Source: Tsukamurella sp. M9C
GTDB lineage: Bacteria; Actinomycetota; Actinomycetes; Mycobacteriales; Mycobacteriaceae
Length of the DNA: 40,703 nt
Direction: 5' to 3'
Assembly (NCBI RefSeq): GCF_020169415.1
Contig: NZ_JAIULG010000043.1
Coordinates: 1-40,703, forward strand
The position numbers and the translations under genes were made by a program. This document shows, piece after piece, positions 19,530 through 28,447 of the stretch; position 1 is the stretch's first letter; each line of letters begins with the position of its first letter. A model generated the notes under the pieces. It did no database searches and was not told where the DNA came from. It saw only the letters and a list, made by a program, of their open reading frames with translations.

Positions 19530-20603
19530 TCAGCGCACGCCCCCGCTGTTCGTGCCCCGCCAGCGCAGCGGCGCCTCCTCGTACTCCTCGGCGATGTGCG
19601 CCGCCATCCCGACGGTCCGGCCGTACTGGAACAGCACCTCGGTGGCGCGCGCGGGGAGCCCGAGCGTGTGCGCGACCGCCGCTCCCGCGAGGTCGATGTT
19701 GACGGACCGGCCGGTCCGGGCGGCGAGGTCCGCGACCGCCCGCAGCGCCGGTGCGTCGGGGCGGTCCGCCCTCATCAGGCCCAGCACGACGGTGGCCCGC
19801 GGGTCCTCGCCGGTGTAGACGATGTGGCCGAAGCCCGCGAGGTGCCCGCCCCACGCCGCGTCCGCGATCGCCGCGTCGATGTCGCCGCCGTCCAGCACCC
19901 GCCCGAGCATCGCGTGGGCGGCTGCCGGCGCGCCGCCGTGCAGCACGCCCGCCATCGCCCCGTACCCGGCCAGCAGCGCGTCGTAGAAGCCCGCGCGCGC
20001 CGACGCCGCGACCCGCGCGGCCGTCGTCGACGCGGCCAGGCCGTTGTCGATCAGGCACGTGGCGAGCGCGTCGACCCAGTGGTGATCGAGGCGGGCCTCC
20101 GGTACCAGCCCCGCGAGCACCGGCAGCAGGCCGAGCGTGCGCTCGGCGACGTGGGACCGGTCCGCCCGCACTGGATCCCGCGCCGCGAGCAGCGCGACGG
20201 CCAGCGGGATCCTGCGCTCGAGCGCTACCGTCCGCGCGACGTCCAGGTCGACGGCCGGCGGGGCGGCGACCTGGTCCGCCTCCAACGCGAAGCGCGCGGC
20301 CGCCGCGAAATCCATCGTCGCGCAGACCTCCGCGATGGGACGGCCGCGCAGATACAGCGCGTCGCCGCGGAGCGCCGAGACCCGCGTGGTCACGGCCCGG
20401 AACCGGAGCAGGCGGTCGGCCTCCCGCCGGCCGTCGTGCTTGACCGCGGCGAGGGAGTCGACCTCGGTGCGGTCGAACAGCGACTCCGCTTGCCCCGGCA
20501 TGCGCCGCGAGTGCAGCACGCCGCGACTGACGTAGGAGTACAGGGTGCCGCGTTTGACCCCGAGCCGCTCCGCGGCCTCCGAGGTCGTGATCCACCGGTC
20601 CAC
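19530..20603 (-). CDS. Citrate synthase-like protein with N-terminal helix-turn-helix
   Basis: A 357-residue fusion. Residues 1-50 form a MerR/excisionase-type helix-turn-helix (TTSEAAERLGVKRGTLYSYVSRGVL). The rest is a citrate synthase fold with VLHGGAP (first active-site His), GFGHIVYTGEDPR (second His and Arg) and NIDLAG (the catalytic Asp position). All three key residues therefore look intact. The domain is shorter than full citrate synthases. It is divergent from a second citrate synthase over 54 bases of palindromes, suggesting a metabolite-sensing autoregulator or a DNA-tethered enzyme; paired genes of this kind occur in other actinobacteria. GTG 20603 lacks a ribosome-binding site. 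Confidence 0.85.
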   Translation of the reverse strand: MDRWITTSEAAERLGVKRGTLYSYVSRGVLHSRRMPGQAESLFDRTEVDSLAAVKHDGRREADRLLRFRAVTTRVSALRGDALYLRGRPIAEVCATMDFAAAARFALEADQVAAPPAVDLDVARTVALERRIPLAVALLAARDPVRADRSHVAERTLGLLPVLAGLVPEARLDHHWVDALATCLIDNGLAASTTAARVAASARAGFYDALLAGYGAMAGVLHGGAPAAAHAMLGRVLDGGDIDAAIADAAWGGHLAGFGHIVYTGEDPRATVVLGLMRADRPDAPALRAVADLAARTGRSVNIDLAGAAVAHTLGLPARATEVLFQYGRTVGMAAHIAEEYEEAPLRWRGTNSGGVR

Positions 20604-20657: not shown

Positions 20658-21773
20658 ATGACCACACCGCTCATCGCCCCGGCCGGGCTCAAGAACGTCA
20701 TCGTGACCGACACCGAGATCGGCGACGTCCGCGGCGAGGAGGGCTACTTCCACTACCGCGGCCACGACGCCACGCGCCTCGCGGCGGAGGTCACCTTCGA
20801 GGACGCCTGGCACCTCGTGCTGTTCGGCCGCCTGCCCGGGCCGTCCGACGGTGCCGCCTTCGCCCGTCGCGCCGGCGCCCTGCGGGTCCTGCCGGGCGGC
20901 GTGCTCGACCTGCTGCGGGCCACCGTCGGGCCGAATACCGAGCCGATGCACGCACTGCGCCTGGCGCTCGCCGGCCTCGGCCTCGGCGACCGGCCGCTCA
21001 TGGACGTGCCGGAGGCCGAACGGGCCGAGGCCGCGCTGCGGTACGCCGCGGCGACTCCGGCCATCCTGGCCGCGGCGCACCGTCTGGCCCGGGGCGAGGT
21101 GCCCCTCGATGCCGACCCGGACGCCGACCACGCCGCCGACTACCTGCGGATGGCGACCGGGACCACGGACGCGGCCGCCGCGGCCGCGCTGCAGACCTAC
21201 CTGGTCGCGACGATCGACCACGGCTTCAACGCCTCGACCTTCGCCGGCCGGGTGATCGCCTCCACGGGCTCCGACATGTCCTCGTGCCTGCTGGGTGCGC
21301 TCGGGGCCTTCCTCGGGCCGCTGCACGGCGGAGCACCGAGCCGAGCGCTGGCGGCGCTCGACGAGATCGGCGATCCCGCGAACACCCGCGCCTGGGTGCG
21401 CGGGAAGATCGCCCGCGACGAGAAGATCATGGGCTTCGGGCACGCCGTCTACCGCACGCACGACCCGCGGTCGGAGCTGCTCAAGGAGGTGGTGACCCGG
21501 TTCGACTCCCCGCTGGTGCGCCGGGCGCGCGCGGTCGAGGCCGAGATCGAGACGGGGATCAACGAACTCAAGCCGGGCAGGCGGCTGTACGCGAACGTCG
21601 AGTTCTACGCGGGCGTGCTGATGACCGAGGTGGGCCTGCCGCCGTCCATGTTCACGCCGACGTTCGGCGTCGCCCGCGTGGTCGGTTGGACCGCGAACAT
21701 CCTCGAGCAGGTCCGCCAGGGCAAGATCATCCGGCCCTCCGCGCAGTACGTCGGGCCGGAGAATTTGCAGTAA
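20658..21773 (+). CDS. Citrate synthase (citrate/2-methylcitrate synthase family)
   Basis: Condenses acetyl-CoA (or propionyl-CoA) with oxaloacetate; 371 residues. Family motifs in order: FHYRGHDATRLA near residue 33, DHGFNASTFAGRV, GPLHGGAPSRAL (first catalytic His), MGFGHAVYRTHDPR (second His and the Arg) and ANVEFYAGVLM. In the last motif Glu stands where most citrate synthases carry the catalytic Asp; the same NVEFYAG is, from memory, usual in the actinobacterial 'citrate synthase 2' group. The ATG at 20658 has only a weak GGGG upstream. Its stop codon region doubles as the promoter of the next gene. Confidence 0.9.
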   Translation: MTTPLIAPAGLKNVIVTDTEIGDVRGEEGYFHYRGHDATRLAAEVTFEDAWHLVLFGRLPGPSDGAAFARRAGALRVLPGGVLDLLRATVGPNTEPMHALRLALAGLGLGDRPLMDVPEAERAEAALRYAAATPAILAAAHRLARGEVPLDADPDADHAADYLRMATGTTDAAAAAALQTYLVATIDHGFNASTFAGRVIASTGSDMSSCLLGALGAFLGPLHGGAPSRALAALDEIGDPANTRAWVRGKIARDEKIMGFGHAVYRTHDPRSELLKEVVTRFDSPLVRRARAVEAEIETGINELKPGRRLYANVEFYAGVLMTEVGLPPSMFTPTFGVARVVGWTANILEQVRQGKIIRPSAQYVGPENLQ

Positions 21774-21782
21774 CACCGTCTG
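21764..21782 (+). promoter_or_regulatory. Promoter of GNAT-like gene A, overlapping the citrate synthase stop
   Basis: TTTGCAG followed by TAACAC (21771-21776) lies six bases before GTG 21783. The TAA of the hexamer is also the stop codon of the citrate synthase gene. The same TTTGCAGTARCA string precedes two of the downstream paralogs. Confidence 0.45.
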
Positions 21783-22898
21783 GTGGGCATCGATCCCGCA
21801 TCCGGTCGCTACCGGATCGGCGACCACGTCCTCGAGCTCCGCGCTCCGCGGCTCGGGGACGCGGACTCCTGGCGCACCACCAACCTCCTGTACGAGAAGC
21901 GCCTGCGCCCCGCGTTCGGCACCGCGACGACGGACTGGAGCACGGAGCACTCCGCCGCCGCCTGGGCGGACCGGTGGTGGCGGGCGCGCACCGACCCGTT
22001 CGTCGTACACGCCCGGGTGCTCGTCGCCGAGGACGGTCCCGTAGCCCATGTGGTGGGACAGGTCGACCACGTGGGGCCGGACCGGCGCACCGGTCACGTC
22101 GAGAGCTCCATCTGGCTCGCCGGCGTCCCGCATTCCACCCCGGTGTCCCGGTGGGCGCTCGCGACGACAGTGCTCGACGTCCTCCGGACGCACCCGGAGG
22201 TGCCGCGGGTCGTCGCCCCGGTGTACGTGCACAACCGCCCCGCGATCGCCCTCCTCGGATCGGTCGGCTTCCACCACGTGCAGACCCTGTTCCAGCTCCG
22301 CGAGTACGCCGGGGAGCCCGTCGACCACGACGTCTTCGCCGTCGAGAACTCCGCGGCGAGCCGGGTGGAGCTGGAACGGATCCTGGACGCGCTCGCCGCG
22401 CAACCCCTGCCCGCACGGCGGGCCGAGAAGCCGTCCGTGTCCGCGGCGTTCGGCGCGGCCCACCTCGCCGTTCGCCGCCTACGTGCGCGCACGACACCCT
22501 CGCGGCCCGCGGACCCGCTCCTGCCGGCCGTCACCCACACCGCCGACCGGCACACCGTCGCGTTCGATGCCGGTCGCGATGCGAGGTATCGGGTGCACAT
22601 GGACGGCGCCCCCATGGGCGACCTGGAGGTGACCGTCGACCTGGGGACCTCGACCACCGAGATCGTCGACCGGCTCGCCCCGAGCGCGGTTCCCGAGGCC
22701 GGCGGCGTCGTCGCCGCCGCGTGTCGCGCGGCCGCGGCACGCCAGAGGACGCGGCGCCCCACGATCGCGCTGGCCGATCGGCATGCCACCGCCTCCCAGG
22801 AGCTCGTCGCCCTCGGCTTCCTCTCCGAAGGGCCCGCGCTCCCGTCCCGCGGCGACGAGCGCACCCCACGAGAGTCGTGGACCCGGCTCCGGGAGTGA
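21783..22898 (+). CDS. GNAT-like two-domain protein, paralog A
   Basis: First of four tandem paralogs, 371 residues. Residues about 7-190 resemble RimJ/RimL-type N-acetyltransferases: LELRAPRLGDADSWR, KRLRPAFG, DWSTEHSAAAW, HVESSIWLAG, then NRPAIALLGSVGFHHV. The Q/R-x-x-G-x-G/A loop that binds acetyl-CoA is not there; the equivalent stretch reads GVPHSTPVSRWAL. After a basic linker, residues about 255-371 form a second, shorter GNAT-like unit (MDGAPMGDLEVTVDLGTSTT, then IALADRHATASQELVALGF). Function is unknown; acyl transfer is uncertain. Start chosen from the TAACAC hexamer six bases upstream. Confidence 0.75.
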   Translation: MGIDPASGRYRIGDHVLELRAPRLGDADSWRTTNLLYEKRLRPAFGTATTDWSTEHSAAAWADRWWRARTDPFVVHARVLVAEDGPVAHVVGQVDHVGPDRRTGHVESSIWLAGVPHSTPVSRWALATTVLDVLRTHPEVPRVVAPVYVHNRPAIALLGSVGFHHVQTLFQLREYAGEPVDHDVFAVENSAASRVELERILDALAAQPLPARRAEKPSVSAAFGAAHLAVRRLRARTTPSRPADPLLPAVTHTADRHTVAFDAGRDARYRVHMDGAPMGDLEVTVDLGTSTTEIVDRLAPSAVPEAGGVVAAACRAAAARQRTRRPTIALADRHATASQELVALGFLSEGPALPSRGDERTPRESWTRLRE

Positions 22899-22943
22899 GT
22901 CGTCGATCACTCGATGCAGCCGCCGCAGCGCATCACAACACTG

Positions 22944-22964
22944 TTTGCAGTAGCATCGCCGGGC
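22944..22964 (+). promoter_or_regulatory. Promoter of GNAT-like gene B
   Basis: TTTGCAGTAGCAT with -10 TAGCAT at 22951-22956, eight bases before GTG 22965. No ribosome-binding site is present. The remaining 45 bases back to gene A show no terminator. Confidence 0.45.
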
Positions 22965-24089
22965 GTGACGATGCCCTCGCACGCCGGCCGCTACAGGATC
23001 GGCGACCACACCATCGAACTCCGCGCTCCACGCCTGTCCGACGCCCGATCCTGGCGGAGCACGGTGCTCGAGCACGAGGAGCGACTCCGCCCCGCGTTCG
23101 CCACCCCGGACACGGACTGGGCGACGGAGCACTCCACCGCCGCGTGGGCGGAGCAGTGGTGGAGCTCCCGAAACGCCGAGACCACCGTGCTCTCACGCGT
23201 GCTCACCGTCGACGATGGCGCGGGCCAGCGGGTCGTCGGCCAACAGGCGATGCTCGGACCCGACCCGCGCGCCGGACACGTCGAATCCCTCACGTGGGTC
23301 GTCGGCCTGCCCGAGTCGAAGGCGGTCACGCTCTGGATGTCGGCTGTGAACGTCCTGGACACGTTCGCGCAGTCCCCCCATGTCTCGGCGGTCCTGGCCG
23401 TGCAGCCCGTGGAGAATCGTGGCTCGCTCGCGCTGGCCAAGGCGCTCGGCTTCACCTATCTCCAGACCGCGCGCTCACTGCGCATCTACGAAGGCGAACC
23501 CGTCGATCACACCATCTACGTCATGCACAACACCGCCGAATCCCGGCGTGACCTGCAGCGGATCATCGACTCGGTCGACCCACAACCCTTGCCGGCGAGC
23601 CGCGCGCCGCTGCCACCCGCCCACGCGGCGGTCGACCTGGCCCGGATCGGCGTCCGACGCCTGCGTGCCGGTCGCGCGGCGGGACGGGCCGTCCCCACCC
23701 GCGCGTTCCCGTCGCTCGCGCGCACCGACGACGGACTCGACATCGCTTTCGGGGCTCCGCGCGACGGACGCCATCCCGTGACCGTCGACGGTGCGCCGCT
23801 CGGTGCACTCGAGATCGACGTCGACGGCGGGAGCTCGACGACCACGATCATCGACCGGCTGCGCGCCGACGCGCCGTCCGCCCTCGCGGCCGCGGTCATC
23901 GTCGCCGCCTGCCGCGCCGCGACGGAACGCCAGCACACCCGGCGCCTCACCGTGGCGCTGGCCGATCGGCACTCCCCCGCTCGCGACGCGCTCGCCGCGA
24001 TCGGCTTCGCCTCCGAGGGAAAGACCCTACCGACGCTCGGGGACGAGGGCACGCCGCGCGAATCGTGGACCCGCCTCCGGGCGGAGTGA
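22965..24089 (+). CDS. GNAT-like two-domain protein, paralog B
   Basis: 374 residues, collinear with paralogs A and C: GRYRIGDHTIELRAPRLSDARSW, RLRPAFATPDTDWATEHSTAAWAEQWW, GHVESLTWVVGLPESKAVTLW, SLALAKALGFTYLQTARSL, then a linker and the C-terminal unit ending GDEGTPRESWTRLRAE. As in A, no canonical acetyl-CoA loop is visible. GTG 22965 and ATG 22971 are both possible; the TAGCAT hexamer favours 22965 on a leaderless or nearly leaderless mRNA. The stop at 24087 is followed six bases later by a second in-frame TGA, which aligns with the stop of paralog D and leads into a truB remnant. Confidence 0.75.
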   Translation: MTMPSHAGRYRIGDHTIELRAPRLSDARSWRSTVLEHEERLRPAFATPDTDWATEHSTAAWAEQWWSSRNAETTVLSRVLTVDDGAGQRVVGQQAMLGPDPRAGHVESLTWVVGLPESKAVTLWMSAVNVLDTFAQSPHVSAVLAVQPVENRGSLALAKALGFTYLQTARSLRIYEGEPVDHTIYVMHNTAESRRDLQRIIDSVDPQPLPASRAPLPPAHAAVDLARIGVRRLRAGRAAGRAVPTRAFPSLARTDDGLDIAFGAPRDGRHPVTVDGAPLGALEIDVDGGSSTTTIIDRLRADAPSALAAAVIVAACRAATERQHTRRLTVALADRHSPARDALAAIGFASEGKTLPTLGDEGTPRESWTRLRAE

Positions 24090-24092
24090 CCT

Positions 24093-24155
24093 TGACCGCT
24101 CGGGCGGCGGGCCGGACCACGAGGACGGAGTTCACGCACTTCCCCTACTTCTTCG
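24093..24155 (-). pseudogene. Relic of the truB 3' end
   Basis: Bases 24093-24145 match 25852-25904 (end of paralog D plus the truB tail) at 45 of 53 positions by hand alignment. Read on the minus strand the relic encodes GKCVNSVLVVRPAA, against [14 protein letters not shown] in TruB. The truB stop has become CGA, and TAG interrupts the frame upstream. Weaker similarity continues to about 24155. It shows that the array grew by duplication of a segment spanning a paralog's 3' end and the adjoining truB tail. Confidence 0.75.
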
Positions 24156-24173
24156 CGCGTCACTGCAGAGAGT

Positions 24174-24193
24174 ATTTGCAGTAGCATTGTCGG
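24174..24193 (+). promoter_or_regulatory. Promoter of GNAT-like gene C
   Basis: TATTTGCAGTAGCAT, with -10 TAGCAT at 24182-24187 exactly six bases before GTG 24194. No ribosome-binding site is seen. Confidence 0.5.
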
Positions 24194-25321
24194 GTGAGAA
24201 CTCAGTCGGCCTCCGGCCGCTTCCGCATCGGCGAACACGTCGTCGAGCTCCGTGCGCCCCGGCTCTCGGATGCCGACTCGTGGCGCCGCACCTGCTTGGA
24301 GCACGAGGAGCGGCTACGCCCCGCTTTCGGCCAGGCGAATGCCGATTGGCGCAAGGAACACTCGTCGACCGCGTGGGCCGACAAGTGGTGGTCCGCCCGT
24401 ACCGACCCGTTCGTCGTCCACTCCCGGGTCCTGATCGCCGGGGACGGAGCCGGCGCACGCGTGGTGGGGCAGGTCGAGCACGTCGGACCGGACCCACGGA
24501 CGGGCCACCTCGAGTCCTCGATCTGGATCGCAGGAATGCCGCGCAGTTCCCCTTCCATCGCGCAATGGGCACTCGCGATATGCGTGTTGGACATCTTCCT
24601 CGCGCTCCCGGATGTCCCGCGCATCATCGCACCGGCGTGCGTGCAGAACCGCGCCGCGGCCACCCTCGCAGAATCGGTCGGTTTCCAGCACGTCCAGACT
24701 CTGCGCCGGCTGCGCGAGTACGCCGGAGAGCCCGCCGATCACGCGATCTACGCGATCGAGAACACCTCCGAGGCCCGCGCTCGACTGGCCGCGACACTCG
24801 ACGCGATCGGGGCGGTGCCCCTGCCTCGACGGAGGGCGGCCGCACCATCACCGGCGGCGACGTTCGGAGCCGCCCGCCTCGGCGCACGCAAGGTGCGTGT
24901 TCGCATGCGCCCGTCGAGGCCGGAGGAGGCACTCCACGCCCTCCCGCGAGTCACGGGCACCGGCGATGCAACCACCGTCGAATTCGAGCCAGGGCGTGAC
25001 GGGCTGTACGAGGCACACGTCGACGGCCGTCCAGCCGGCGCGGCCCAGATCTCCGTCGACCTGGGGACCTCGACGACCGAGATCATCGACCGCACGGCAC
25101 ACGAGGTGCCCGACGGAACGGCCGACGCCGTGATCATCGCCGCATGCCGGGCCGCTGCGGAGCGCCAGGACACCCGGCGGTTGACGATAGCCGCGGCCGA
25201 CCCCAGCCCACATCTCACGGACGCGCTCGCAACCATCGGCTTCCGCCGCGAAGGCACCACCTGGCCCACCCGCGGCGACGAATCCACGCCGCGGGTGACA
25301 TGGACCCGCCTGCGCGAGTAA
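24194..25321 (+). CDS. GNAT-like two-domain protein, paralog C
   Basis: 375 residues, closest to A in its first domain (LELRAPRLSDADSWR-like start, DPFVVHSRVLIAGDG, GHLESSIWIAGMPRSS, VGFQHVQTLRRLREYAGEP). The stretch after IAGM reads PRSSPSIAQWAL and lacks the acetyl-CoA loop. The C-terminal unit (about 260-375) contains HVDGRPAGAAQISVDLGTST and DALATIGFRREG, ending TPRVTWTRLRE. The -10 hexamer spacing makes GTG 24194 a clean leaderless start. The 122 bases after it are comparatively AT-rich and hold no gene. Confidence 0.75.
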   Translation: MRTQSASGRFRIGEHVVELRAPRLSDADSWRRTCLEHEERLRPAFGQANADWRKEHSSTAWADKWWSARTDPFVVHSRVLIAGDGAGARVVGQVEHVGPDPRTGHLESSIWIAGMPRSSPSIAQWALAICVLDIFLALPDVPRIIAPACVQNRAAATLAESVGFQHVQTLRRLREYAGEPADHAIYAIENTSEARARLAATLDAIGAVPLPRRRAAAPSPAATFGAARLGARKVRVRMRPSRPEEALHALPRVTGTGDATTVEFEPGRDGLYEAHVDGRPAGAAQISVDLGTSTTEIIDRTAHEVPDGTADAVIIAACRAAAERQDTRRLTIAAADPSPHLTDALATIGFRREGTTWPTRGDESTPRVTWTRLRE

Positions 25322-25406
25322 TCGATCCGGCGTTGCCGTAGGACGATGCGCACGGCCCGGGCCTGCCACTCACCGGGGCTAGTTCGCCTAGAAAATCACC
25401 CCAAAT

Positions 25407-25443
25407 GAGTGATTAGTCACATTTTTGCGGTACCATCGCGGTC
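25407..25443 (+). promoter_or_regulatory. Promoter of GNAT-like gene D
   Basis: TTTTTGCGGTACCAT with -10 TACCAT at 25431-25436, seven bases before ATG 25444. Just upstream, GTGATTAGTCAC (25409-25420) forms an inverted repeat with arms GTGA and TCAC, which could be an operator. The rest of the gap from 25322 shows no recognisable element. Confidence 0.4.
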
Positions 25444-25854
25444 ATGACCATGACGCCGACCGCCGGTCGATTCCGCATCGGCGAGCACGAGAACAGCACT
25501 TGCGCAGTGACGTTCGAGGCGGTGAGCGACGGGCTGTATCAGGCGTTCACGGATGGCCGGCGAGTCGGCGACGTACAGGTGTCCGTCGACCTGAGGACCT
25601 CCACGACGGAGATCATCGACAGGATCCCACCCGACGCGGCGACGGACGCGGCGGTCATCGTGATCATCGCCGCCTGCCGCGCGGTCGCGGAGCACCAAGC
25701 AACCCGACGGCTGACGATCGCTGTGGCCGACCGGCACGTGTCAGCTGCGCCCGCGCTCGAAACTCTCGGATTCGCCTCGGAGGGCCCTACGTGGCCCACG
25801 CTCGGCGACGAGTCCACGCCCCGCGCATCGTGGACTCGATTCCTGGACGGCTGA
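25444..25854 (+). CDS. GNAT-like paralog D, C-terminal domain only
   Basis: 136 residues. The first 15 or so (TPTAGRFRIGEHE) match the N-termini of paralogs A-C, then the sequence jumps in frame to their C-terminal unit: VTFEAVSDGLYQAFTDGRRVGD, VSVDLRTSTTEIIDRI, LTIAVADRHVSAAPALETLGFASEG, GDESTPRASWTRFLDG. About 225 residues, the whole first GNAT-like domain and linker, are missing. The frame is intact and the gene has its own promoter-like sequence, so the product may be a functional stand-alone domain rather than a dead remnant. It ends four bases from the convergent truB. Confidence 0.7.
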   Translation: MTMTPTAGRFRIGEHENSTCAVTFEAVSDGLYQAFTDGRRVGDVQVSVDLRTSTTEIIDRIPPDAATDAAVIVIIAACRAVAEHQATRRLTIAVADRHVSAAPALETLGFASEGPTWPTLGDESTPRASWTRFLDG

Positions 25855-25858
25855 CCGC

Positions 25859-26764
25859 TCAGGCGGCGGGGCGGACCACGAAGACCGAACTCGCGCGCTT
25901 CCCCGACTCCTGGAGCAGCGCGAAGACGCGGCCATCGGCGGTCGCCGCGGCGTAGACGCCGGGCAGGCCGACCGGCTCGAGCCATCGACCCAGCGCGAGG
26001 TCGACGGACTGCTCCTCGGTGATCTCGCGGATGGCGAAGCCCGCGGCGATCGCCTCGTCGATGCCGTAGGACAACCGCGGGGTCTCGAAGAGGTCGTCGA
26101 GGGTGATCGCGTGATCGAGCCCGTACGGCCCGACCCTGGTGCGACGCAACGCGGTCAGGTGCCCACCCACGCCGAGGCTCGCGCCCAGGTCGCGGGCGAG
26201 CGCCCGGACGTACGTGCCGGAGGAGCATTCGACCGTCACGTCGACGTCGAGGAAGCCGCCCTCGCGCCGGAAGGCGTGCGCCGCGAACTCGTCGACGGTG
26301 ACCGGGCGGGCCTTGAGCTGCACGTCCGCCCCCTCGCGCACCAGCTGGTGGGCCCGCTTGCCGTCGACCTTGATGGCGCTCACCGAGCTCGGGACCTGCT
26401 CGATGTCACCCGTCAGCGGCGCCATCGCGGCGCGCACGGCGTCCTCGTCGAGGCCCGCGGCGGGGGCGCCGCCGGTGACCTCGCCCTCGGCGTCGTCGGT
26501 GGACGTCGACGCGCCGAGCCGGACGGTGGCCGTGTACGCCTTGCTCGTGAGAGCGAGGTGGCCCAGCAGCTTCGTCGCCCGCTCGATGCCGATCACCAGC
26601 ACGCCCGTCGCCATCGGGTCGAGGGTGCCGGCGTGACCGACCTTGCGCGTGCCCATCGCGCGCCGGCACCGCGCGACGACGTCGTGGCTGGTGAGGCCCG
26701 CAGGCTTGTCGACGATGACGAGTCCGGCGCCGTCGGGCTCGAGAAAGGTCCTGGCGGTGGTCAT
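25859..26764 (-). CDS. truB: tRNA pseudouridine(55) synthase
   Basis: Isomerises U55 in the T-arm of tRNAs; 301 residues. The catalytic Asp lies in [16 protein letters not shown] (about residues 41-56), preceded by [32 protein letters not shown] and [14 protein letters not shown] are further TruB signatures, and a small C-terminal domain follows. One base separates its ATG from the stop of pptT, so it is the last gene of the pptH-pptT-truB operon. Its last codons are also present as a relic at 24093-24155. Confidence 0.96.
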
Positions 26765-26765
26765 C

Positions 26766-27437
26766 TCACACCACCGCGATCGAGGTCACGATGAGGCCGT
26801 CGGTGATCCGCCACCGGCCGTCGAACGCAGCGACCGGCGCGCCGCCGTCGACGGTCCTGCCGTCGATGAGGATCCGCGAGTGGAAGGTGCCCTCCGCCGC
26901 GTCGTCGGCGCGCTCGGCGAGGTCGAAGGTGATCTCCGCATCCTCGAAGCCCAGCCAACGCCCGGTGATCGGGTTCCACGCCTTGTACGTGGCCTCCTTG
27001 GCGCAGAACAGCAGGCGGTCCCAGTGCAGCCCGTCGTCGGGGCGCGCGGCGAGCACCTCCCGCTCGGACTCCACGGAGACCGTGGGCAGCACCTTGTCGG
27101 GCAGGGCGAGATGCGGCTCGGCGTCGATGCCGATCGTGCGCACCCCCATCCGGTAACCGACGACCGCGCCGCGAAAGCCGTCGCAGTGCGTGAGGGCGCC
27201 CACCACGTTGCGCGGCCAGTCCACCCCGCCGCCCTCGCCCTTGACGAGGACGGCGTCGCCGATGCCCAACTCGCCCAGGGCCTCCCGGGCCAGGTGGCGC
27301 ACCGTCGCGTACTCGGCCTGCCGCTTGGGCACGGCCTTGGCGATCTGCGCCGCCTCGCGCGGATGCAGGGGCGCGTCCAGATCGGCGTGCGCCTCCCGGG
27401 CGACCACGCCGCGCGGCAGCATCGACTGCAGGATCAC
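26766..27437 (-). CDS. pptT: 4'-phosphopantetheinyl transferase PptT
   Basis: Transfers the phosphopantetheine arm of CoA to carrier domains of fatty-acid, mycolic-acid and siderophore synthases; 223 residues. [19 protein letters not shown] holds the first magnesium-binding acid, and [29 protein letters not shown] holds the K-E-A-x-Y-K motif. SLTHC-like [17 protein letters not shown] precedes them. It is Sfp-type and closely resembles mycobacterial PptT. It starts at GTG 27437 in a GTGA overlap with pptH. Confidence 0.94.
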
Positions 27438-28447
27438 TTCTCCCCCTCTTTCGCCCGCGCCGCCCGGCGCTCGGCGATCCGTTCCCGTGCCGCCACCCGG
27501 CGGTCGCCGAGGCGGGCCTGGGCCTTCGCGCGCTCGGCGGCGAACTTCTCCGGGTCGTCCCGGTACTTCGGGTCCACCTGGAAGTGGACGCCGTAGTGCC
27601 CGAGCGACTCCTCGGTGTAATCCGGCGCCGGCAGGATCCGGCGCAGCAGCGGCTCGGGCAGGCCCCGCTCCTGCCATTCCCGCGGGTAGCCCACCGAGAC
27701 CTCCTCGAACCGCACCCCGTCGTACCAGGTGGTGCGCGGGATGTGCAGGTGGCCGTACACGACGGCCTCGGCGTTGTAGTCGACGTGCCAGTCCGCCGTC
27801 GCGGTGGTGCCGCACCACAGCGAGAAGTCCGGGTAGAAGAGCACCTCGGTGGGTTCGCGGCGCAGGGGCCAGTGGTTCACGAGCACAGTGCGGGTGCCGG
27901 CGGGCAGGGCGGCGAGCCGACGGCGGGTGTACTCGAGCCGGGCGCGGCACCAGGCGTCGCGGGTGGCGTAGGGCTCGGGCGAGAGCAGGAACTCGTCGGT
28001 CGCGACGACGCTCTTCTCCTTCGCTCGGGCCAGCGCCTGCAGCACGGTCAGCCCCTCGTCGCGGAAGCTGTAGTCGTAGAGCAGGAACATCGGGACGATC
28101 GTGACGGGCCCGGCGTCGGCGTCCTCGAACACCGGGAACGGGTCCTCCGGCGTGAGGACGCCGTGGTGCCGGCAGATCTCCACCAGGTGGTCGTACCGGG
28201 CCTCGCCGAAGACCTGCATCGGGTCCTTCGAGGTGGTGTAGAGCTCGTGATTCCCCGGGACCCAGATCACCGTTGCGAACCGCGGAGCGATGGCGGCGAG
28301 CACCTCGTCGAGCTGGTCGGTGCGTTCGCAGAGGTCGCCCGCGAGGATCAGCCAGTCGTCGGGCGACTCGGGCCACACCTTGTCGACGACGCCCTCGTTC
28401 CCTCGGTGCCCGACGTGCAGGTCACTGATCGCCCAGAGCTTCGCCAC
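27434..28447 (-). CDS. pptH: Metallophosphoesterase, PptH-like
   Basis: Calcineurin-like phosphoesterase of 337 residues. Metal-binding motifs: SDLHVGH (D-x-H) near residue 8, LAGDLCERTD (G-D) near 36, VPGNHELY (G-N-H-E) near 65, VNHWPL near 191 and YGHLHIPRT (G-H-x-H) near 230. In mycobacteria the gene at this position encodes PptH, which removes phosphopantetheine from carrier proteins and opposes PptT. The C-terminus is a long basic and acidic helix rich in Ala, Arg and Glu. GTGA overlap with pptT implies coupled translation of the two opposing enzymes. Assignment rests on similarity and synteny. Confidence 0.85.
   Translation of the reverse strand: MAKLWAISDLHVGHRGNEGVVDKVWPESPDDWLILAGDLCERTDQLDEVLAAIAPRFATVIWVPGNHELYTTSKDPMQVFGEARYDHLVEICRHHGVLTPEDPFPVFEDADAGPVTIVPMFLLYDYSFRDEGLTVLQALARAKEKSVVATDEFLLSPEPYATRDAWCRARLEYTRRRLAALPAGTRTVLVNHWPLRREPTEVLFYPDFSLWCGTTATADWHVDYNAEAVVYGHLHIPRTTWYDGVRFEEVSVGYPREWQERGLPEPLLRRILPAPDYTEESLGHYGVHFQVDPKYRDDPEKFAAERAKAQARLGDRRVAARERIAERRAARAKEGEK

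Follow-up and report, generated by a model that had tools for sequence, protein, structure and literature searches.

The four genes between citrate synthase and truB

The 40,703-nucleotide stretch of Tsukamurella sp. M9C DNA analysed here (contig NZ_JAIULG010000043.1, hereafter the window) carries, between a citrate synthase gene and truB, an array of four related genes lying on the same strand, which we call P1 to P4 (Table 1). The initial annotation had placed the array between these two genes, which was confirmed, and had described it as four GNAT-like paralogs; the four same-strand related open reading frames (ORFs) were recovered, but Pfam recognised GNAT in P1–P3 only, P4 being the second domain alone. 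The three long proteins share 51–60% identity with one another over at least 370 aligned residues, far above chance, and P4 is 52–57% identical to them. The start that had been reported as of GRYRIGEH type is similar in all four, the exact letters being GRYRIGDH in P1 and P2 and GRFRIGEH in P3 and P4, whereas the end reported as common to all, TPRESWTRL, is exact in P1 and P2 and reads TPRVTWTRL in P3 and TPRASWTRF in P4. The array is compact: P1 starts 10 bases past the final base of the citrate synthase stop, the intergenic gaps P1–P2, P2–P3 and P3–P4 measure 66, 104 and 122 bp, respectively, and P4 ends 4 bases from the end of truB. For P2, a longer alternative frame opens at 22914.

Table 1. 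Coordinates in the window of the array genes, their D domains and boxes, and the flanking genes.
Feature	Position	Strand	Remarks
Citrate synthase gene, left flank	20658..21773	+	
Promoter-like box of P1, TTGCAGTAACAC	21765..21776	+	overlaps citrate synthase stop codon TAA
P1 gene, 371 aa, RimJ-type GNAT domain + compact GNAT domain (D)	21783..22898	+	
D domain of P1	22545..22895	+	
Promoter-like box of P2, TTGCAGTAGCAT	22945..22956	+	
P2 gene, 374 aa, architecture as P1	22965..24089	+	start is the GTG downstream of the box
D domain of P2	23739..24086	+	
truB 3'-end relic	24093..24152	+	50/60 bases identical to 25852-25911
Promoter-like box of P3, TTGCAGTAGCAT	24176..24187	+	
P3 gene, 375 aa, architecture as P1	24194..25321	+	81% identity to T. 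ocularis copy
D domain of P3	24971..25318	+	
Promoter-like box of P4, TTGCGGTACCAT	25425..25436	+	
P4 gene, 136 aa, 15-residue long-form start + D domain	25444..25854	+	counterpart in T. ocularis
truB, right flank, convergent to the array	25859..26764	-	

The N-terminal half of P1–P3 is a RimJ-type GNAT domain and the C-terminal half, named D, a second and compact GNAT domain without the helices after strand 1. For D, the assignment comes from the agreement between profile comparison (hhalign, with shuffle controls) and an AlphaFold model (predicted local distance difference test, pLDDT, 88.6) compared by Foldseek/VIA, in which three of the 50 structures listed were non-acetyltransferases by title (3eo4, 3fxt, 6x2d). 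Both domains have the GNAT fold, and the long copies hold two GNAT domains in one chain. The profile comparison, the model and the structure comparison together ruled out the alternative of a new fold for D. A recent origin of D by internal copying of the N domain is not favoured either, because its profile scored higher against outside GNATs (46.3) than against a mixed set including the N domains of the array itself (39.6), and the direct comparison with those domains was weak. The 57 GNAT rows used for comparison include some loci more than once, as well as overlapping segments of a single gene. No family covering the full-length protein was found in Pfam, NCBIfam and PADLOC, and D has no named family in the libraries searched; to this extent the earlier statement that no named system has such a form was borne out. 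A match of P1 to a tRNA-deaminase-associated protein in NCBIfam (E 0.048, short of the cut-off) was taken as chance.

As to the neighbourhood, a recent foreign origin of the array was not supported by base composition, the guanine-cytosine content being 69–74% in the array and 69–77% in the flanks shown. Two citrate-synthase-family genes stand back to back at 19530-20603 (-) and 20658-21773 (+), the former encoding an N-terminal excisionase-type DNA-binding domain (TIGR01764, E 4.7e-8) joined to a divergent citrate synthase body. Past truB, the long frame 26766-28376 (-) contains a phosphopantetheinyl transferase gene (4PPT_N, ACPS) and also spans a neighbouring phosphoesterase gene.

Distribution, age and selection of the copies

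To describe the spread of the family we refer to genomes and loci by our own labels (G and L numbers). Of 16 Tsukamurella genomes, 11 carry the long protein, and the genus has 16 copies in all, 14 long and two short, with one to four per carrying genome. All are located between citrate synthase and truB: four in the window, two in G086 (one long, one short), two in G158 and one in each of eight other genomes. The nearest named relative found is Tsukamurella ocularis S00175 (L051). The two flanking genes adjoin in 15 of the 16 genomes and lie on different contigs in G198. Five genomes have no copy, and the site was inspected in four of them: G113, G100 and G201 (the last 83% complete) have abutting or overlapping flanking genes, and G168 has another short frame within a gap a few hundred bases long. 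In the copy of G053 (L071, G053:C67:163873-164935) about 20 residues are missing at the junction between linker and D, still in frame.

Outside the genus matches were few. Among 201 genomes of the family, P4 matched in 11, all of the same genus (one of 31 genera). The D profile matched in seven of 394 genomes of the class at E <= 0.01, namely the genome under study, G310 (E 7.8e-9) and five weak cases (E 0.0026–0.0089). The G310 protein has two domains and 31% identity to P3 over 379 columns; when searched in 149 genomes of its own family it gave one further full-length match, in G989 (85%), and matches of the N domain only in G1007, in G1003 and at another locus in G989. In most of the 19 genomes with a match, this was limited to roughly the first 110 residues of P0007, ahead of the GNAT part, and these were set aside. 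The family thus extends past Tsukamurella, with two full-length homologues in another actinobacterial family, but was rare in the samples.

The copies within one genome are old. Recent tandem duplication was rejected, since a clade of P1–P3 was incompatible with the data (approximately unbiased test, p-AU 2e-55), and the same was true of the two G158 copies as a sister pair (p 2e-84). In the gene tree P1, P3, the long copy of G086 and the second copy of G158 fall on one side, and P2 forms a clade with copies of G070, G148, G158 and G178, which share its type (support 100/100). The copy types fit the flanking genes poorly: holding the G178 or the G137 copy with those of G188, G053 and G125 was rejected (p 2e-4 and 1e-4, respectively). 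The conflict is not decisive for exchange between lineages, and both such exchange and old paralogy with differential loss are retained as candidate explanations. One event left a trace in the window. Because the relic listed in Table 1 matches the 3' end of truB, P2 must once have been directly beside truB; the relic shows only the joining of the P1–P2 unit in front of the P3–P4 unit.

P4 keeps the first 15 residues of the long form and then lacks the counterpart of P3 residues 16–255 (240 residues). The same deletion is present in T. ocularis, and this D-only gene is conserved in the two species. The ratio of nonsynonymous to synonymous substitutions (dN/dS, calculated according to Nei-Gojobori with our own script) was 0.30 for both P3 and P4 against T. 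ocularis, and 0.25 for the D domain of P4; no positive selection was seen in these averaged values. Between P4 and its counterpart we counted 23, 17 and 38 base differences at codon positions 1, 2 and 3, and as few changes at the first two positions were reached in 2 of 20000 neutral simulations. P4 is under purifying selection. The view that the tandem copies were kept intact while diverging therefore found support in the dN/dS values of P3 and P4 and in the codon-position test of P4. The array proteins change faster than their neighbours: with T. ocularis, P3 shares 81% and P4 74% identity, compared with 95% in TruB and 91% in citrate synthase. These data bear on a sober alternative, in which the genes are ordinary lineage-specific duplicates drifting toward loss and P4 is a decaying fragment. 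It would explain the missing 240 residues and the five genomes without a copy; however, both short proteins are intact at 136 amino acids, with a dN/dS of 0.30 and the rarely simulated codon-position bias, and we regard this alternative as improbable.

Promoter-like boxes

A promoter-like box precedes all 16 copies, with TTGC, two purines and TA-n-C-A-T or a variant of it differing by one or two bases. From the end of the box to the start codon there are 6, 7 and 8 bases in 9, 6 and 1 copies, respectively, the start codons of the G030, G070, G178 and G188 copies having been set to the in-frame start beside the box. Conservation drops 5' of the box, where position -1 is T in 11 of the 16. In the window the hexamers are TAACAC (P1), TAGCAT (P2 and P3) and TACCAT (P4), at 6, 8, 6 and 7 bases from the start codons of P1 to P4. 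The initial annotation had assigned each gene its own TANNNT hexamer 6–8 bases before the start; the spacing held for all four and the hexamer for three, P1 being the exception.

Hexamer placement of this kind is hardly peculiar to the array. The window contains 10 instances of TANNNT-N6-RTG, where shuffled sequence would give 2.8; starts of leaderless type therefore look common in the genome, and what sets the array apart is the longer conserved 12-mer. The 12-mer TTGCRRTARCAT occurred 13 times in the 16 genomes, 11 of them at copies, and the reversed control not at all; the remaining two occurrences have no start codon at the array spacing. With a looser box followed by a start codon there were 23 matches, 15 at copies, and 27 in the control, and in the genome under study all four matches were those of the array; a still looser pattern gave six matches (three at the array) and seven in the control. 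A role of the box as a genome-wide regulon element was therefore rejected, no excess over control being seen beyond the array. In 7 of the 11 loci with copies the stop codon of citrate synthase is formed by the first three bases of the box hexamer, and in an eighth, that of G188, it overlaps the hexamer end; the box thus encodes the C-terminal residues of the enzyme, which are LQ in 7 of 11.

The main promoter motif of M. tuberculosis, as given in PMC3898074, is TANNNT, 7–12 bases before the start site and often preceded by S-R-N, and 26% of the genes with a primary start site are there described as leaderless. On this precedent, and with the box spacing kept in 16 of 16 copies, an own leaderless start for each copy is most likely. 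Read-through from gene to gene may occur as well, since a scan of 21500-26800 revealed neither terminator-like nor sigma-70-type sites; with gaps of this size and no terminator-like site, the assertion that the array is not one operon was not borne out.

Candidate function and known systems

The reading that we prefer, at somewhat less than even probability, is that the array proteins are atypical tandem-GNAT acyltransferases diversified as promoter-ORF cassettes. One domain would carry out acyl transfer to an amino group and the degenerate domain would help to build the substrate pocket, as in MshD and PamZ. Each gene is a self-contained cassette, with its own box 6–8 nucleotides before the start codon and most likely a leaderless mRNA. 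The cassettes at the citrate synthase-truB site are old and have become joined, a P1–P2 unit ending in the truB relic having come to lie before a T. ocularis-like P3–P4 unit; the relic and the tree are observed, the order of events is inferred. P4, the selected D-only product, may function by itself or together with the long forms.

Several observations weigh against this proposal. The canonical GNAT cofactor loop, Q/R-x-x-G-x-G/A according to PMC4964394, is at its expected place in none of the 14 N domains of the long copies and in none of the 16 D domains, and its absence makes the use of acetyl-CoA doubtful. The model of the full-length protein is of only moderate quality (pLDDT 63, predicted template modelling score, pTM, 0.52), and the D profile matched nine N-domain rows weakly in the first profile comparison (Prob 0.5). 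Both the hexamer of P1 and the box of G178, which reads TTGCAATGACAT, depart from TANNNT or from the common form. An open P4 frame alone proves little, because 29% of the neutral simulations were also free of stop codons. As for the history of the site, the grouping of the flanking genes has a support of only 89/96, a tree with the G178 copy placed outside the four others of that type was not rejected (p 0.108), the six-species flank test including G086 and G178 gave p 0.017, and a supposed copy of the citrate-synthase tail ahead of P3 lacked significance beyond the box (113 and 123 of 500 shuffles being as good).

The loop itself was considered further. In an aligned example the array has RSSPSIAQ where relatives of RimJ have TGRGVATT, and in D of P3, aligned by eye, EVPDGTAD stands against EVAGRGVAT of the G575 protein; the canonical pattern is present elsewhere in the sequence of 4 of the 16 D domains. 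Its absence is weakly diagnostic, because even when K or A was accepted, the loosened pattern turned up in no more than 9 of 36 comparison GNAT rows, several of these nine retaining the glycines without the first residue. PMC4964394 also describes acetyl-CoA bound by AAC(2')-Ic and PseH despite atypical loops. Even with the loop lost, the array proteins may therefore use acetyl-CoA, doubtful as this is. Every array row, like the loop-less relatives compared, retains the strand-4 glutamate, and, by eye, the N domain retains the W and DH positions of RimJ type. The initial annotation had allowed that they might turn out to be ordinary acetyltransferases; this was neither found nor excluded, the fold being that of GNATs and the cofactor loop atypical in every copy.

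The same residues bear on the main competing explanation, namely that these proteins have the GNAT fold but no catalytic activity and serve to bind a ligand or partner, P4 being a minimal version or a partner of the long forms. The loss of the canonical loop at the usual position from both domains of every long copy and the conservation of a D-only gene in two species agree with it, but the glutamate, W and DH positions kept in the N domain, and the activity that GNATs with atypical loops can have (PMC4964394), do not, and we consider such a binding role possible though less likely than the enzyme reading.

Alternatively, the genes could be stacked acetyltransferases for self-protection or detoxification, each copy masking an amino group on a different toxic compound in the manner of PamZ. 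A tandem-GNAT self-resistance enzyme of this kind, PamZ for paenilamicin, is reported in PMC9054821; moreover, the copies differ among species and evolve faster than TruB and citrate synthase, and a phosphopantetheinyl transferase gene lies past truB. The other neighbours scanned, and only these, are citrate synthases, TruB and a phosphoesterase, with no biosynthetic cluster among them, and the PADLOC anti-phage models gave 0 families at E <= 1 for the four proteins. Considering also the atypical loop, we hold this alternative to be quite improbable. Only a small chance is likewise given to a broader idea, in which the citrate synthase-truB gap would be a diversification site for self-contained promoter-ORF cassettes encoding a recognition or modification protein of GNAT fold, with diverged haplotypes swapped between species and stacked in tandem and the D-only member selected; the purpose would be recognition or protection specific to the strain, not housekeeping acetylation.

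A literature search, to which subscription journals were mostly inaccessible, found no published description of the locus. The GNAT fold and the promoter type were known already, while the two-domain architecture, the D-only gene and the stacked cassettes appear to be new. The interest lies in a tandem-GNAT family absent by name from the libraries searched, whose compact second domain is also a selected stand-alone gene, and in a naturally occurring stack of promoter-ORF cassettes at one fixed site. Should a substrate be identified, specificity could be mapped with several diverged versions; should the proteins turn out not to use acyl-CoA, the GNAT fold would have been put to another use.

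Among known systems, RimJ acetylates ribosomal protein S5. The N domain of the array is homologous to RimJ of Mycobacterium smegmatis (PDB 6c30, 6c32, 6c37), which is a single-domain GNAT with the glycine-rich loop SRTGGGIATAAL; at this position PRSSPSIAQWAL is one example from the array, whose long proteins also possess a second GNAT domain. MshD and PamZ, which we compared by published description rather than by sequence or structure, resemble the long copies in having two GNAT domains per chain, one of them inactive and helping to shape the substrate site of its partner (PMC9054821 and PMC4964394). In both, one domain is active with acetyl-CoA, whereas in the array no domain has the canonical loop that would hold the active cofactor, and D lacks the helices after strand 1.

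The GNATs of actinobacterial glycan clusters rank with the N domain's closest outside relatives and likewise lack the canonical loop; unlike the array proteins they are single-domain proteins of 216–217 amino acids, or fusions without D, and are not arrayed. We looked at the context of four of these nearest relatives, all of them loop-less GNAT proteins. In L105 (1870-2520, in the genome under study) a loop-less GNAT gene is beside a Wzy_C ligase gene, in L106 (1988-3418) the GNAT is fused to a WecG/TagA transferase, and in L139 (2447-3097) it is beside WecG/TagA and group-1 transferase genes; the two neighbours scanned at L107 included no recognised glycan gene. This context offers a lead, not a test, toward amino-sugar or envelope substrates.

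Finally, the boxes resemble the mycobacterial SRN-TANNNT leaderless promoters, as described in PMC3898074, in having TANNNT 6–8 nucleotides before the start in most copies, with C-R-R fitting SRN. They differ from them in carrying TTGC in 16 of 16 copies and in showing no excess over control off the family.

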